From IMG/VR virus record IMGVR_UViG_3300017917_002434, positions 62,001 to 126,000 of that record: a DNA stretch of 64,000 bases; one strand, 5' to 3'. A model generated the notes under the pieces. The model saw only the letters and a list, made by a program, of their open reading frames with translations. It did no database searches and was not told where the DNA came from. Numbering within the stretch: the stretch's first letter is position 1; the number at the start of each line of letters is the position of its first letter. Both the position numbers and the translations under genes were made by a program. Positions 26,983 to 32,955 of this stretch are shown here, one piece after another. The DNA comes from a virus.

Positions 26983-27243
26983 ATGGCAAAAATGTACGGC
27001 CCAGAAGAAAAGGCAAAGCTCGAAAGATTGATTACCGAAGGCGGCAATGTCCTTCGAGAGATTGAAGATCTACAAGAAGGTCTCAAAGAAACTGTAAAAG
27101 CTGTAGCCGAAGAATTACAAGTTAAACCTAGCATTATTAACAAAGCAATTAAAATCGCACATAAAGATAATTGGAAAGACCACGAACAAGAATGGGACGA
27201 AATCGAAATGATCTTAGGTGTAACCAAAAGATTACCTGAATGA
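26983..27243 (+). CDS. DsbA-like double-stranded DNA-binding protein
   Basis: 86 residues. The C-terminal half (VKAVAEELQVKPSIINKAIKIAHKDNWKDHEQEWDEIE) follows the pattern of T4 DsbA (KDELGV...FNRLL.LYHKDN...E.E.EEV..LYD), a small helical protein that binds dsDNA and helps late transcription. The match is by remembered family pattern and is moderate. It sits just before the polymerase gene and has its own early promoter. Confidence 0.6.
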   Translation: MAKMYGPEEKAKLERLITEGGNVLREIEDLQEGLKETVKAVAEELQVKPSIINKAIKIAHKDNWKDHEQEWDEIEMILGVTKRLPE

Positions 27244-27530: not shown

Positions 27531-27658
27531 CTGCTATAGCACTAGAAATTATTTTCAACTGGGTGTTAATGGGAATAATCCTATCAGCTGTAATGGTAAT
27601 CGGTTTATATTTTGCTATTCTATGCGAAAAATTTATTGACTACTTACGCAGTCAATAA
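27527..27658 (+). CDS. Small single-TM protein (43 residues)
   Basis: ATG 27527 overlaps the previous stop (ATGA) and the frame closes at TAA 27656-27658. The peptide has one long hydrophobic span (IIFNWVLMGIILSAVMVIGL continuing to about residue 33) and a short basic tail (EKFIDYLRSQ). Coupling to another membrane protein gene supports it. The stop overlaps a late promoter core. Confidence 0.5.
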   Translation: MTAIALEIIFNWVLMGIILSAVMVIGLYFAILCEKFIDYLRSQ

Positions 27659-27661
27659 ATA
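27655..27661 (+). promoter_or_regulatory. T4-type late promoter core
   Basis: ATAAATA within CAATAAATATATTAG. It lies 74 bases before the polymerase start, longer than the usual leader here, so any transcript would contain the tandem hairpins at 27678-27722. Confidence 0.45.
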
Positions 27662-27677
27662 TATTAGAGTAAGGTTT

Positions 27678-27722
27678 GATCAGCCATAAATGATCCGTTT
27701 GGTTTGCCAGCCGCAAGTGGCA
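27678..27722 (+). promoter_or_regulatory. Tandem hairpin leader, candidate gp43 translational operator
   Basis: Two hairpins, each with a 5-bp stem and 8-base loop: GATCA-GCCATAAA-TGATC (27678-27695) and TGCCA-GCCGCAAG-TGGCA (27705-27722). Each follows GGTTTG, so the unit is a 28-base tandem repeat. Both loops read GCCNNAAN. The second ends one base before AGGAG, the ribosome site of the polymerase gene. T4 gp43 represses its own translation by binding a 5-bp/8-base hairpin in the same position; the geometry matches, the sequence does not need to. Confidence 0.6.
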
Positions 27723-27734
27723 TAGGAGAAAAAT

Positions 27735-30401
27735 TTGAGTTACGTTGACGCATTCTATAATCGCGATCAGGATACTATCCATATTGTCGAACGAGACGAT
27801 AAAGGAATTAGGCATTTTAAAGAATATCCTGCTCGACACATCTTTTACTTTCAAGACCCTAAAGGAAAATACACTAGTACTCACGGAGAACCGCTGAGCC
27901 GTGTAACCTGTAAAAATCTCAAAGATTTACATAAAGAACTTAAAATACATAGTGGCATGAAGCTCTACGAATCGGACATAAATCCGATTTATCGCTGTCT
28001 CGAAGACAATTATCTAAATCAAGATTCTCCTAAATTACAAGTAGCGTTTTTTGATATTGAAGTTGACTTTGATCCGGAACGTGGTTACGCATCGCCTGAA
28101 GATGCTTTTATGCCGATTACTGCTATAGCTATTCATTTACAATGGCTGAATACTCTAGTTTGTTTAGCCCTACCTCCAAAAACGCTAACTTTAGAAGAAG
28201 CCAAAAAACAAGTATCTGAATTTCCTAATACATATATCTTCGAAACAGAGGCTGAACTATTAGATAACTTCTTAAATCTCATCCAAGATGCTGATGTGTT
28301 AAGTGGTTGGAACTCAGAAGGCTTTGATATTCCTTACACAGTTAATCGTGTTACCAAAGTTCTCAGCAAAGATGACACAAGACGTTTCTGTTTGTGGGAT
28401 CAATATCCTAAGAAGCGTGAATACGAGAAATATGGTAGAACTTCTGTGACCTATGATCTCGTAGGTAGAGTACATCTAGATTTATTAGAAATCTATAGAA
28501 AATATACCTACGAAGAAAGACATTCGTATCGACTAGATGCTATCGCCGAATATGAATTAGGAGAAACTAAAACAGTCTATGAAGGTACATTAGATCAACT
28601 TTACAATAATGATTTCAAAAAGTTCATCGAATACAATAGACAAGACTGTGCTCTACTAGATAAACTAGACAATAAACTTAAATTCTTGGATCTCGCTAAT
28701 AAGATCGCACACGAAAATACAGTATTACTACAGACTACAATGGGTGCTGTAGCTGTTACAGAGCAGGCTATCATTAACGAGGCACATCGTAGAGGGATGA
28801 TAGTACCCAATCGGGTAAGAAGAGAACCTGGCTCTGAGCCAGCTGCTGGTGCTTATGTCGCTTATCCTAAGAAAGGCATCCACGAATGGATTGGTTCAGT
28901 TGATATTAACTCACTGTATCCTTCAGCAATTCGTGCCTTAAACATGGGACCAGAGACTATCGTAGGACAGTTGCGTCAAGACTACACTAAAAACTATATC
29001 GATCAAGAAATGGGCAAAGGAAAATCTTTCGCCGCTGCTTGGGAAGGTATATTTGGTAGTCTAGAATACGAATATGTGATGGAAAGAAACGTTGCCAAAG
29101 AAATTACTATCGACTGGGAAGGTGGGGGTAGTGATACACTCAGCGGTGCTCAGATCTATGATCTTATATTCGAAAACAATCAACCTTGGATGCTATCAGC
29201 AAACGGTACTATCTTTACCTACGAAAAAGAAGGTATTATTCCCGGACTGTTAAAGCGTTGGTATGCTGAACGTAAAGAGATGCAGGCCAAACTTAAAGAA
29301 TGTATCGCTGCTGGTAATAAAGTAGAAGAAGAATACTGGGACAAGCGACAGCTAGTTAAGAAGATTAATTTGAACAGTTTGTACGGTGCTATTCTTAATC
29401 CGGGTTGTAGGTTCTTTGATAATAGGATCGGTCAGAGTACTACACTCAGTGGTAGACAGATCGTCAAACATATGGCTAGTAAGATCAATGAAATAGCCAC
29501 AGGAGAATATGATTACAAAGGTAAAGCTGTAATCTACGGTGATACAGACTCATGTTATTTCTCAGCCTATCCTGTATTAAAGAAAGAAATTGAATCTGGA
29601 CAGTTGCCGTGGACCAAAGAAACTGTGGTTCAACTCTATGATCAGATCGCCGACGAAGTAAATGCCAGCTTTCCAAAAATGATGCAGGATAAGTTTCATT
29701 GTCCTAAGACTCGCGGAGAAGTTATTAAAGCAGGTAGAGAACTTGTTGCTTCAAAGGGGCTGTTTATTACCAAGAAGCGTTATGCTGTACTTTATTATGA
29801 TAAAGAAGGCAAACGTACAGATGTTAATGATAAACCTGGTAAAATCAAAGCCATGGGTCTTGATCTGAAACGTTCAGATACTCCTGTTGTAATTCAAGAC
29901 TTCCTTAGCAAAGTACTCGAGATGGTACTTAATGGTGTTCCTAGAGAAGAAGTTCTAGAATACATCACTGATTTCCGTACAGAGTTTAAGACTAGACCTG
30001 GTTGGGAGAAAGGTTCACCTAAACGTGCCAACAACATTACCGAGTATCAGGCTAAAGAAAAGAAACAAGGCAAAGCCAACATGCCCGGCCATGTTCGAGC
30101 TAGCTTAAACTGGAATACTCTGAAACGTATGCATGACGACAAGTACTCTATGGGGATCACTGACGGTGCTAAGGTTATTGTTTGTAAAGTCAAAGATAAT
30201 CCAATGGGCTATACTTCAGTGGCATACCCTGTTGACGAACTTAGATTGCCGCAATGGTTCAAAGATCTTCCGTTCGATGATTCCGAGATGGAGACTACAG
30301 TCATCGACGAAAAGCTAGAAAACCTTATTGGTGTTTTGGAATGGGACATCAGTTCAACAAGGTCAGATAACACATTCAGCAAATTGTTTGATTTTGAGTA
30401 A
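27735..30401 (+). CDS. 43: Family B DNA polymerase (gp43), TTG start
   Basis: 888 residues (T4 gp43 898). TTG start with AGGAG six bases upstream. Exonuclease motifs: FFDIEVDFD (Exo I), LSGWNSEGFDIPY (Exo II) and YNRQDCALLDKL (Exo III region). Polymerase motifs: SVDINSLYPSAIRA (A), KKINLNSLYGAI (B), YGDTDSCYF (C) and ITKKRYAV. The C-terminal tail ends in SKLFDFE, resembling the clamp-binding end of T4 gp43 (LFDMFDF). All catalytic residues look intact. No intein or split is present. Confidence 0.96.
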   Translation: MSYVDAFYNRDQDTIHIVERDDKGIRHFKEYPARHIFYFQDPKGKYTSTHGEPLSRVTCKNLKDLHKELKIHSGMKLYESDINPIYRCLEDNYLNQDSPKLQVAFFDIEVDFDPERGYASPEDAFMPITAIAIHLQWLNTLVCLALPPKTLTLEEAKKQVSEFPNTYIFETEAELLDNFLNLIQDADVLSGWNSEGFDIPYTVNRVTKVLSKDDTRRFCLWDQYPKKREYEKYGRTSVTYDLVGRVHLDLLEIYRKYTYEERHSYRLDAIAEYELGETKTVYEGTLDQLYNNDFKKFIEYNRQDCALLDKLDNKLKFLDLANKIAHENTVLLQTTMGAVAVTEQAIINEAHRRGMIVPNRVRREPGSEPAAGAYVAYPKKGIHEWIGSVDINSLYPSAIRALNMGPETIVGQLRQDYTKNYIDQEMGKGKSFAAAWEGIFGSLEYEYVMERNVAKEITIDWEGGGSDTLSGAQIYDLIFENNQPWMLSANGTIFTYEKEGIIPGLLKRWYAERKEMQAKLKECIAAGNKVEEEYWDKRQLVKKINLNSLYGAILNPGCRFFDNRIGQSTTLSGRQIVKHMASKINEIATGEYDYKGKAVIYGDTDSCYFSAYPVLKKEIESGQLPWTKETVVQLYDQIADEVNASFPKMMQDKFHCPKTRGEVIKAGRELVASKGLFITKKRYAVLYYDKEGKRTDVNDKPGKIKAMGLDLKRSDTPVVIQDFLSKVLEMVLNGVPREEVLEYITDFRTEFKTRPGWEKGSPKRANNITEYQAKEKKQGKANMPGHVRASLNWNTLKRMHDDKYSMGITDGAKVIVCKVKDNPMGYTSVAYPVDELRLPQWFKDLPFDDSEMETTVIDEKLENLIGVLEWDISSTRSDNTFSKLFDFE

Positions 30402-30463: not shown

Positions 30464-31201
30464 ATGAAAGATATTTTACAAGACATCGTAGGTCACACAC
30501 AGAATCTAGGCTTCTTAACAACTGTTAAAGTCACAGGCTCAGAAGAAGGTACAGCAATTTTTTCAATGGCGGATGATCGTTCTGTGATCATGGAAGCTAC
30601 TACACACAATCCATATCCAGATATGATTGGTACATTTGGTATGCCGCAACTACAGAAACTCAAGTATCTGTTAGATGGGCCGGAGTATAAAGAAGATGCT
30701 AAGATCAATATTACCACAGCAGAACGCAATGGCGAAACTATTCCTGTAGGCATCCACTTTGAAAACAAAGACGGCGACTTCAAGAACGATTATCGTTTCA
30801 TGAATCAAGAAATCATCAACGAAAAGATGAAGACAGTCAAGTTTCGTGGTGTTAAGTGGGACGTAGAATTAGAGCCAAGCGTGGCCGCAGTACAGCGTTT
30901 CAACTTTCAAGCAGGTGCTCACAGCGAACATCCGACATTTCTCGCTAAAACAGACAGCGGTAATCTAAAGTTTATCTTTGGTGATGCTTCTACACACGGT
31001 GGTGAGTTTGTATTCGCACAGAATGTAGCAGGTAAACTTGATCGCGGTTGGACTTGGCCAGTCAATCCAATCCTAAGTATCTTGAAAATCGCAGATGTTA
31101 ACAATACAAAAATGGCTCTAAGTAATGAAGGTGCCATCCAGATTACTCTAGACAGCGGTTTAGCTACTTACAAATACATTATTCCAGCACAACAGCAATG
31201 A
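30464..31201 (+). CDS. 45: DNA polymerase sliding clamp (gp45)
   Basis: 245 residues (T4 gp45 228). Two-domain clamp layout with the phrases VTGSEEGTAIFSMADDRSV, FNFQAGAHSEHPTF and a C-terminal IQITLDSGLATYKYIIPAQ; position directly after gene 43 supports it. In T4 it also tethers late-transcription machinery (gp33/gp55), matching the late promoters seen here. It has its own early promoter, allowing expression beyond that of gene 43. Confidence 0.9.
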   Translation: MKDILQDIVGHTQNLGFLTTVKVTGSEEGTAIFSMADDRSVIMEATTHNPYPDMIGTFGMPQLQKLKYLLDGPEYKEDAKINITTAERNGETIPVGIHFENKDGDFKNDYRFMNQEIINEKMKTVKFRGVKWDVELEPSVAAVQRFNFQAGAHSEHPTFLAKTDSGNLKFIFGDASTHGGEFVFAQNVAGKLDRGWTWPVNPILSILKIADVNNTKMALSNEGAIQITLDSGLATYKYIIPAQQQ

Positions 31202-31205
31202 TATT

Positions 31206-31448
31206 ATGAAAGAGTGGCGTGACGCAGATCATAAGGTTTCTTATTATTTTGAAAAAGATAATGGTAGGATCATCGGTCAAGTATACAATCTAGCACATAC
31301 AAATATCTATGGTGCTAAAGTTTACAGCGAACGCAACGAAGAATTATATCTAGGTCAATATATCAGCTATGAATTCGCTAAAAAGGCCACTGAACATTTT
31401 TGGAACGTACAAGAGAGAACACTAACACATGAAGAAGCCACCAGTTAA
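31206..31448 (+). CDS. Hypothetical protein
   Basis: 80 residues starting 4 bases after gene 45. One beta-rich domain (KVSYYFEKDNGRIIGQVYN, IYGAKVYSERNEELYLGQYIS) ending in a helix that carries AKKATEHFWNVQERTL. It overlaps the DpdA-like gene by 20 bases. Similar small genes follow clamp genes in marine T4-like phages, from memory. Function unknown. Confidence 0.5.
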   Translation: MKEWRDADHKVSYYFEKDNGRIIGQVYNLAHTNIYGAKVYSERNEELYLGQYISYEFAKKATEHFWNVQERTLTHEEATS

Positions 31449-32955
31449 TTTAACCCCACTACAGAAAGACTACGCAGTATATCTACCTGCGATCAGTTGT
31501 TTCTTTTCAACATACATTAGCAAACAGAGATTTGACGAATTCGTTCCGCAAGATCGTATTCCTAAAGGATTTGATCGAGGCATCGAAGGTATGAACTTCT
31601 TAAATCCAGAACAGGGTTACTTTACCTACAAATATGGCTTATATTCAGCTGGTCACGCACAATTAGATCTAAATAAGACTATAACACAAGATGCTATGAT
31701 ACAAGATCGTGATCGTGCTAATACTTTGATCGTAGGCGATTCCGGCGGATATCAGATTGGTAAAGGTGTTCTTAAATTTGATTGGCAGAATTTCGAAGGA
31801 GCAGCAGCGAACAAGGTTCGCGACAACATCCTTAATTGGTTAGAATTAACTGCCGATTGGTCAATGTTGCTAGACGTCCCTACCTGGGCTTGTGATCATA
31901 TTCATGGTCCAAAAACAGGATTAAAAAGTTTCAATGATTGTTTAGAAAAAACACTTCACAATAACGACTATTTCATTAGAAATAGACTAGGTCAAACTAA
32001 ATTTTTAAATGTTCTTCAAGGTAGTGACTGGGAAACAGCACAGGCTTGGTATGAAGCAGTTAAACACTTGCCCACAGAAGGTTGGGCGATGGGTGGAAAG
32101 AATATGTGCGATATGGAAATCGCACTAAAAAGACTTATCATTCTAAGAGACGAAAAACTTTTAGATGATAGGAATTGGATGCACTTCTTGGGCACCGCTC
32201 AATTAGATTGGTCCTGCTATCTAACTTCTATTCAACGCCAAGTGAGGGAAAACATCAATGAAAACTTTACCATATCTTTTGACTGTGCCAGCCCATTTAT
32301 CGCAACAGCACACGGACTCGTCTATACTAACGCCCAGCACACAAACAAACGCTGGTCAGTCATCATGGACAAAGCACCAGACAACAAAGCCCTTAGCCAG
32401 GCTTTTCATGTCCCGTTCCCCTTTGAATCAGAAATCGGAAGAAGACTCACTCAAGGTGACATCTGCTGGTACAAGCCGGGAATGTTAAACAAAGTAGGCA
32501 AAGAAGGCAAAACATCTTGGGATAGTTTTGGTTACGCCCTAATGATGGCACATAATACCTACTGTCATATTGTTGCTGTACAACGTGCTAATAATTTGAT
32601 GGATATCGAAACTGCTCGATTCGCTCCCGATTGGAGAGAGTGGAAGAAGATCAAAGACTCGGACATGAGTGACGAGTATTCAGATTGGGTACCTAGAAAT
32701 ATACTTTACTTTGATCGTTTTGTAAAAGAATTATTCAAGAGCGAAACACCTATGCAGATGATCGAAGATGCTAAACCTATGCTATCAAATATGATGGGTA
32801 TGAGACTTAAAGGTGGGGTGGCTAAGAACCAATTTAACAGTTTGTTCGACGAAGAACAAAAAACCGGCGATGTAGAAGATTTCATGGATCCCGAAGATCC
32901 TAAGTTGAAAGAATTGGAAGAACTTTATTACGAACAGGAGGCTCAGAATGTATGA
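31429..32955 (+). CDS. dpdA: DpdA-like DNA transglycosylase (TGT superfamily)
   Basis: 508 residues. The tRNA-guanine transglycosylase pattern is readable: VGDSGGYQIG (Asp 104, equivalent to the TGT general base), LLDVPTW (Asp 149), GWAMGG (residues 218-223) and FDCASPF (Asp 285, equivalent to the TGT nucleophile in DCVxPTR). The CxCxxC zinc site of tRNA TGT is missing. Phage and island DpdA proteins use this fold to exchange guanine in DNA for preQ0-type bases. FolE, a QueD-like protein and QueE lie 2.4-11 kb downstream and could supply the base. Confidence 0.72.
   Translation: MKKPPVNLTPLQKDYAVYLPAISCFFSTYISKQRFDEFVPQDRIPKGFDRGIEGMNFLNPEQGYFTYKYGLYSAGHAQLDLNKTITQDAMIQDRDRANTLIVGDSGGYQIGKGVLKFDWQNFEGAAANKVRDNILNWLELTADWSMLLDVPTWACDHIHGPKTGLKSFNDCLEKTLHNNDYFIRNRLGQTKFLNVLQGSDWETAQAWYEAVKHLPTEGWAMGGKNMCDMEIALKRLIILRDEKLLDDRNWMHFLGTAQLDWSCYLTSIQRQVRENINENFTISFDCASPFIATAHGLVYTNAQHTNKRWSVIMDKAPDNKALSQAFHVPFPFESEIGRRLTQGDICWYKPGMLNKVGKEGKTSWDSFGYALMMAHNTYCHIVAVQRANNLMDIETARFAPDWREWKKIKDSDMSDEYSDWVPRNILYFDRFVKELFKSETPMQMIEDAKPMLSNMMGMRLKGGVAKNQFNSLFDEEQKTGDVEDFMDPEDPKLKELEELYYEQEAQNV

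Follow-up and report, generated by a model that had tools for sequence, protein, structure and literature searches.

A conserved tandem RNA element, a candidate gp43 operator, before the DNA polymerase gene of uncultivated phages

The polymerase locus

The DNA analysed here is a 64-kb window (by which we mean the whole stretch under analysis) that forms part of an uncultivated virus record of 269,730 b. On its plus strand, a gene starting with TTG (27735..30401) encodes a gp43-like, family-B DNA polymerase of 888 amino acids, which matches phrog_262 (E = 1.9e-203) and contains the Pfam domains PF00136 and PF03104. The next gene, at 30464, occupies what we take to be the position of a clamp of the gp45 type. 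Near the 5' side of the polymerase gene, positions 26983-27243 encode a small DNA-binding protein similar to DsbA (PF11126, phrog_639), a late-transcription accessory of the T4 type, and at 31429-32955 lies a gene for a 508-residue protein that has no Pfam match and by eye resembles the phage tRNA-guanine transglycosylases (DpdA-like).

Two units of the same layout, on the plus strand, precede the polymerase gene. The first (27673-27695) reads GGT TT GATCA GCCATAAA TGATC and the second (27701-27722) GGT T TGCCA GCCGCAAG TGGCA, with CGTTT between them. The Shine-Dalgarno sequence AGGAG (27724..27728) follows, then AAAAAT and the TTG start, so that AGGAG lies 6 nt 5' of the start codon. A previous, sequence-only reading had described two repeated hairpins after GGTTTG, with 5-bp stems and 8-nt loops, and this is what the window contains: both units have such a stem, a loop of the form GCCNNAAN and GGTTTG directly on the 5' side. 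The same reading placed the second hairpin against AGGAG; the two do adjoin, but a single T lies between them.

In the 64-kb window nothing but these two units fits the pattern made of GGY, a stem of at least 4 bp and GCCNNAAN, where order-1 random sequence of the same length gives 0.2 matches on average, and none of the remaining pattern matches across the 269,730-b record has a stem. Minimum-energy folding of the element gave no signal (z = +0.59) and was dropped as a test of the units; folding energy being no evidence here, the case for them is comparative.

Conservation among polymerase leaders

Four protein-based scans yielded 270 leaders, 210 of them distinct, from IMG/VR relatives with about 69-95% identity in the gp43 protein; the gp43-leader sets share contigs and the sampling is biased to IMG/VR. 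A parser alone recognised both units in 199 of the 210. In two more (L050 and L199) it overlooked the second unit, which has a short stem or a 9-nt loop and was read by eye. Eight leaders had no units near gp43, but for seven of them a class of leaders lacking the element was rejected, since the complete tandem turned up farther upstream, at 133-686 nt, where an inserted ORF separates it from gp43. Both units are therefore present in 208 of the 210 distinct leaders; in the other two, we found no unit (L205) or one (L023). The sequence-only reading had staked itself on the conservation of stems and loops in relatives, and both are kept.

The hairpin stem, called stem 2 below, has the arms GATCA (27678..27682) and TGATC (27691..27695) in the first unit of the window and TGCCA (27705..27709) and TGGCA (27718..27722) in the second. 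Among the leaders the first unit shows 40 distinct arm pairs for this stem and the second shows 25, and the arms covary strongly. We examined this in two ungapped alignments of 21 columns, one for the first unit (A2) and one for the second (A3), from which the linker between GGY and the stem was omitted and units with a bulge or a 9-nt loop were excluded. Paired cells make up 94% of A2 and 97% of A3. In A2, 174 cells are changed on both sides, against 59.6 in shuffles that ignore relatedness, none of 500 shuffles being as high, and in A3 the figures are 49 and 15.5, with shuffles of the same kind; in both alignments the signal is lost when the pairing partners are slid. For stem 2 of the first unit, 92% of cells are paired and the covariation score of the structure is 0.64, versus 0.26 when shuffled. 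The covariation check that the sequence-only reading had proposed was thereby run, and it came out in favour of the stems. Both hairpins are confirmed as real, correctly placed and strongly conserved.

Every one of the 401 units counted has 4-5 pairs, with a loop of 8 nt in 378 cases and 9 nt in 23, and AA is constant at positions 6-7 of the 8-nt loops (invariant columns in A2 and A3). The linker of the first unit measures 2 nt in 158 of 193 units. From GGY to GGY the distance is 27-28 nt in most leaders, with a gap of about 5-6 nt between the units, and about 1 nt separates the second unit from the Shine-Dalgarno core (exactly 1 nt, the modal value and that of the window, in 105 of 202 leaders). 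In about a quarter of the first units one base of the 5' strand of stem 2, the third or the fourth, is bulged (GCGAG/CCGC, GCAGG/CCGC, GCTGG/CCGC and GCGTG/CCGC); unbulged GCGG/CCGC relatives exist.

Pairing between flank and loop

The GGY triplet is constant in 395 of 401 units, including all 202 second units, and lies 0-4 nt (modally 2 or 3) 5' of the stem. When the flank is tallied with the first three bases of the loop, 366 units have GGT/GCC, 26 GGC/GCC, five AGT/GCT and two GGT/ACC. Only two of the 401 depart from pairing, with GGT/TCC (L204) and TGT/GCC (L246). The five AGT/GCT units fall at five separate positions on the gp43 protein tree, each neighbouring GGY/GCC relatives, if it is assumed that the leader is inherited with gp43 (leader exchange is possible). 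A marine relative, L464, has AGC/GCT in its sole unit.

The association was put to an out-of-sample test, with the prediction fixed beforehand that a GCT loop must go with an AGT flank. IMG/VR was scanned for a stem with a GCT loop, the flank being left unspecified, which gave 120 matches. Thirty-two of these sit 40-49 nt before gp43, and AGT is found in 32 out of 32, GGT in none; 28 of the contigs are new, and the remaining four belonged to the first set as well. The 88 unrelated matches have no such bias (AG[TC] in 16, GG[TC] in 7, neither in 65). In the AGT/GCT leaders the second unit is still GGT/GCC, which indicates that flank and loop pair within a unit; pairing of the GGY of one unit with the loop of the other was ruled out on this ground.

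Given the compensatory changes, each unit is an H-type pseudoknot, in which stem 1 is formed by the 3 bp of GGY:GCC, loop L1 is usually 1-3 nt long, stem 2 has 4-5 bp and loop L3 is NNAAN. In the first unit of the window, GGT (27673..27675) pairs with GCC (27683-27685), the beginning of the loop GCCATAAA (27683..27690), whose remaining ATAAA is L3; L1 is the 2 nt at 27676..27677. In the second, GGT (27701..27703) pairs with GCC (27710-27712) in the loop GCCGCAAG (27710..27717), leaving GCAAG as L3 and a single nucleotide (27704..27704) as L1. In such a fold stem 2 directly abuts stem 1, L1 crosses stem 2 and stem 1 is spanned by NNAAN. An L1 of 1-3 nt spanning a 5-bp stem 2 is usual in H-type pseudoknots. 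A stem 1 of 3 bp is weak by itself.

Association with gp43 and a possible transcript start

A scan for the tandem by its sequence, independent of the neighbouring gene, gave at least 120 matches, and all 120 listed lie upstream of gp43, 112 at 40 nt or less and eight with an intervening ORF. No gene other than gp43 is preceded by the element, either among these listed matches or across the 269,730-b genome.

Of 198 distinct leaders, 157 have a TAARTA motif in the 30 nt that precede the first GGY, most commonly at a distance of exactly 11 nt; in a control stretch of 30 nt the motif does not occur. In the window it is part of the octamer AATAAATA (27654..27661, plus strand). The leaders have it in this form and as GATAAGTA and TATAAATA, and the motif is enriched in the noncoding DNA of the window. 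From its sequence the motif resembles a T4-type late promoter. Placed 11 nt before the first GGY, it would put the 5' end of a transcript a few nucleotides upstream of the first unit, so that such an RNA may begin with the tandem.

In seven of the 208 two-unit leaders a small gene lies between the tandem and gp43, and about a dozen leaders overall have an ORF there; the tandem is kept. In the eight listed matches with an intervening ORF, this ORF begins directly 3' of the second unit. With an ORF in between, control of gp43 would require coupling or action on the whole transcript; in L287 and L338 the end of the inserted ORF overlaps the gp43 start (ATGA), which is the arrangement that translational coupling would need. 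Insertions, some of them a small ORF and others a gene whose product has about 200 aa, were seen in L076, L156/L287, L170, L173/L303, L217/L343 and L252, and also in L283, L314, L338, L345, L401 and L403. One product, of 204 aa, has no Pfam match and by eye looks like a 2-oxoglutarate oxygenase.

Distribution among phages

In a marine sister group (L415-L494, gp43 about 66% identical) most leaders have one pseudoknot, which adjoins the Shine-Dalgarno sequence and reads GGT-TAA-GTTG-GCCATAAG-CAAC. At the position of the first unit, some 50-60 nt upstream of gp43, another hairpin is conserved in this group, CGCC...GGCATG, whose inner stem varies (for example GACAAUUGUC); some members have neither the pseudoknot nor this alternative hairpin. 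The leaders L410 and L412, from metagenome-assembled genomes, have the same single-pseudoknot form. No such unit was found in Phosso, Atu_ph07, Vibrio 2.275, 121Q, RaK2, T4, RB69 or RB49, nor in S-CAM9, P-RSM4, Melnitz-1, K575, Slicko01 or RL2RES, so that T4 and its two relatives, the cyanophages searched and the nearest isolates are without the element. A generic pseudoknot descriptor matches 4% of random 120-nt stretches, and its lone matches in S-CAM9 and T4 are therefore meaningless.

The sequence-only reading saw in the doubled element a possible variation on the control known from T4. The doubling is indeed kept throughout the clade and goes with gp43, but it is clade-specific, the marine group having one unit, with another hairpin where the first unit would be. 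We found no report of gp43 pseudoknots in the open-access literature.

Possible functions of the tandem

The comparisons show the pairings of both stems, their conservation, the link with gp43 and the place at the ribosome binding site, which leaves the question of what the two units do. In our opinion the tandem is probably an autogenous translational operator of gp43, a counterpart of the T4 operator with another structure; the ligand would be gp43, the effect repression, and the doubling would provide cooperativity. A gp43 molecule not engaged on a primer-template would bind the second pseudoknot, and the first would be another, probably cooperative, gp43 site. Bound gp43 would hold the second pseudoknot against the Shine-Dalgarno sequence and block 30S binding. 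Since it is unengaged gp43 that would do so, the level of polymerase is proposed to follow demand. There is a direct precedent in the gp43 proteins of T4, RB69 and RB49, each of which binds a hairpin in the leader of its own message (PMC3014915), and RNA competes with DNA for binding to one protein (PMC535899). What counts against the operator is a loop unlike that of T4, the ORFs inserted in about a dozen leaders, the weakness of a 3-bp stem 1 and the lack of autoregulation in some T4-like gp43 proteins. The constant GGY, GCC and AA, carried on freely varying stems, suggest a fold that is recognised, and not a mere barrier. Three other functions, and one other structure, are considered.

The tandem could be a pair of riboswitches, in which a small molecule, for instance a nucleotide tied to DNA synthesis, gates the Shine-Dalgarno sequence in the manner of preQ1 or SAM-II. 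H-type pseudoknots with A-containing crossing strands beside the ribosome binding site are, as general knowledge has it, a common riboswitch architecture, a tandem gives cooperativity, and a small, constant core is conserved. However, the element precedes gp43 only, and never metabolic genes, among the matches listed; neither the window nor five relatives matched a curated covariance model of Rfam at gathering score, and there was no match even at E<=5; and the NN positions of the loop vary freely, which leaves few constant bases for a pocket. We regard a riboswitch as unlikely.

Another replication or regulatory protein (gp32-like, RegA-like or gp45) might be the ligand in place of gp43. There are precedents: T4 gene 32 is autoregulated via an H-type pseudoknot 5' of its ribosome binding site (PMC535899), and RegA represses many replication mRNAs (PMC3014915). 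A general repressor should nevertheless have several target genes, and none was found elsewhere in the genome; moreover, no UUAAA repeats follow the pseudoknots, unlike in the gene 32 operator. An operator for such a protein seems doubtful to us.

A constitutive structure at the 5' end, stabilising the mRNA or positioning the ribosome without any trans-acting repressor, would be in keeping with pseudoknots that probably lie within a few bases of the 5' end, with the conserved TAARTA upstream of them, and that persist where an inserted ORF separates them from gp43. Such protection would not need two copies that share GGY, GCC and AA on freely changing stems, a combination typical of a recognised motif, and we give this explanation little credence. 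Finally, plain tandem hairpins, with GGY conserved only as a protein contact and unpaired with the loop, might be defended on the ground that GGY and GCC are nearly invariant, so that most leaders do not probe the pairing, but AGT comes with GCT every time (five of five in the first set, 32 of 32 in the scan) where elsewhere more than 97% have GGY, and by this comparison that structure is already contradicted and hardly tenable.

Coming back to the gp43 operator, we think the chances slightly favour a broader proposal, that the paired H-type pseudoknots are an undescribed RNA family, a cooperative two-site operator of the replicative DNA polymerase (bound by two gp43 molecules, or by gp43 and a partner) that would be widespread in uncultivated aquatic phages. 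If so, the marine form with one pseudoknot would reveal how one operator became two, or was lost. The tandem is common to this virus and hundreds of relatives: a large uncultivated phage group has a different fold, and a doubled one, where T4 has its hairpin, and the task is probably the same. Rfam does not contain the element, for which a family of its own appears appropriate; its 21-base core is easily recognised, which makes the evolution of polymerase-RNA recognition testable, and natural material is at hand in the one- and two-unit forms, the AGT/GCT variants and the leaders with inserted genes.

Comparison with known systems

To our knowledge, detailed accounts of polymerase autorepression are limited to a few T4-like coliphages, whose polymerase binds a single hairpin. 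The gp43 proteins of T4, RB69 and RB49 repress their own mRNA via a leader hairpin, of 18 bases in T4 and 16 in RB69, with no evidence of a pseudoknot in the T4 operator, and autoregulation is absent in some T4-like gp43 proteins (PMC3014915). The likeness lies in the gene and in a structured leader RNA at the same place before the ribosome binding site, as well as in dimensions, the T4 and RB69 operators having stems of 4-5 bp and 8-nt loops. An A-rich loop is also common to both: RB49 has UAAA, which is contained in the ATAAA of our first unit. However, those phages have one hairpin, whereas here there are two units, each with a GGY:GCC stem. In sequence the T4 operator is AGCCU-AAUAACUC-GGGCU, and its 5 bp and 8 nt match the units, as the sequence-only reading had noted in calling the geometry exactly that of T4; it is the folds that differ, ours being pseudoknots and not plain hairpins, and the loops, GCCNNAAN as against AAUAACUC, with a GCC start unlike that of T4. 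T4-type loops have UAAC, CAAC or UAAA, the 3' AC or AA being important, where our units have the constant AA of loop positions 6-7.

The T4 gene 32 operator is similar in being an H-type pseudoknot just 5' of the ribosome binding site of a replication protein gene. It differs in being a single copy before another gene (Ssb), whereas our units are two, before gp43 only among the matches listed, with a stem 1 of 3 bp; its UUAAA/UAAA repeats over the ribosome binding site, which bind further gp32, have no counterpart in 27696-27740.

Riboswitches of the preQ1-I and SAM-II classes are, from general knowledge, small H-type pseudoknots adjoining the Shine-Dalgarno sequence, as the second unit is; the tandem is unlike them in matching no Rfam family and in standing before the polymerase gene only, among the matches listed. 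Judged from these sequence comparisons, the element is like a gp43 operator by its position, yet is not the same element as that of T4.
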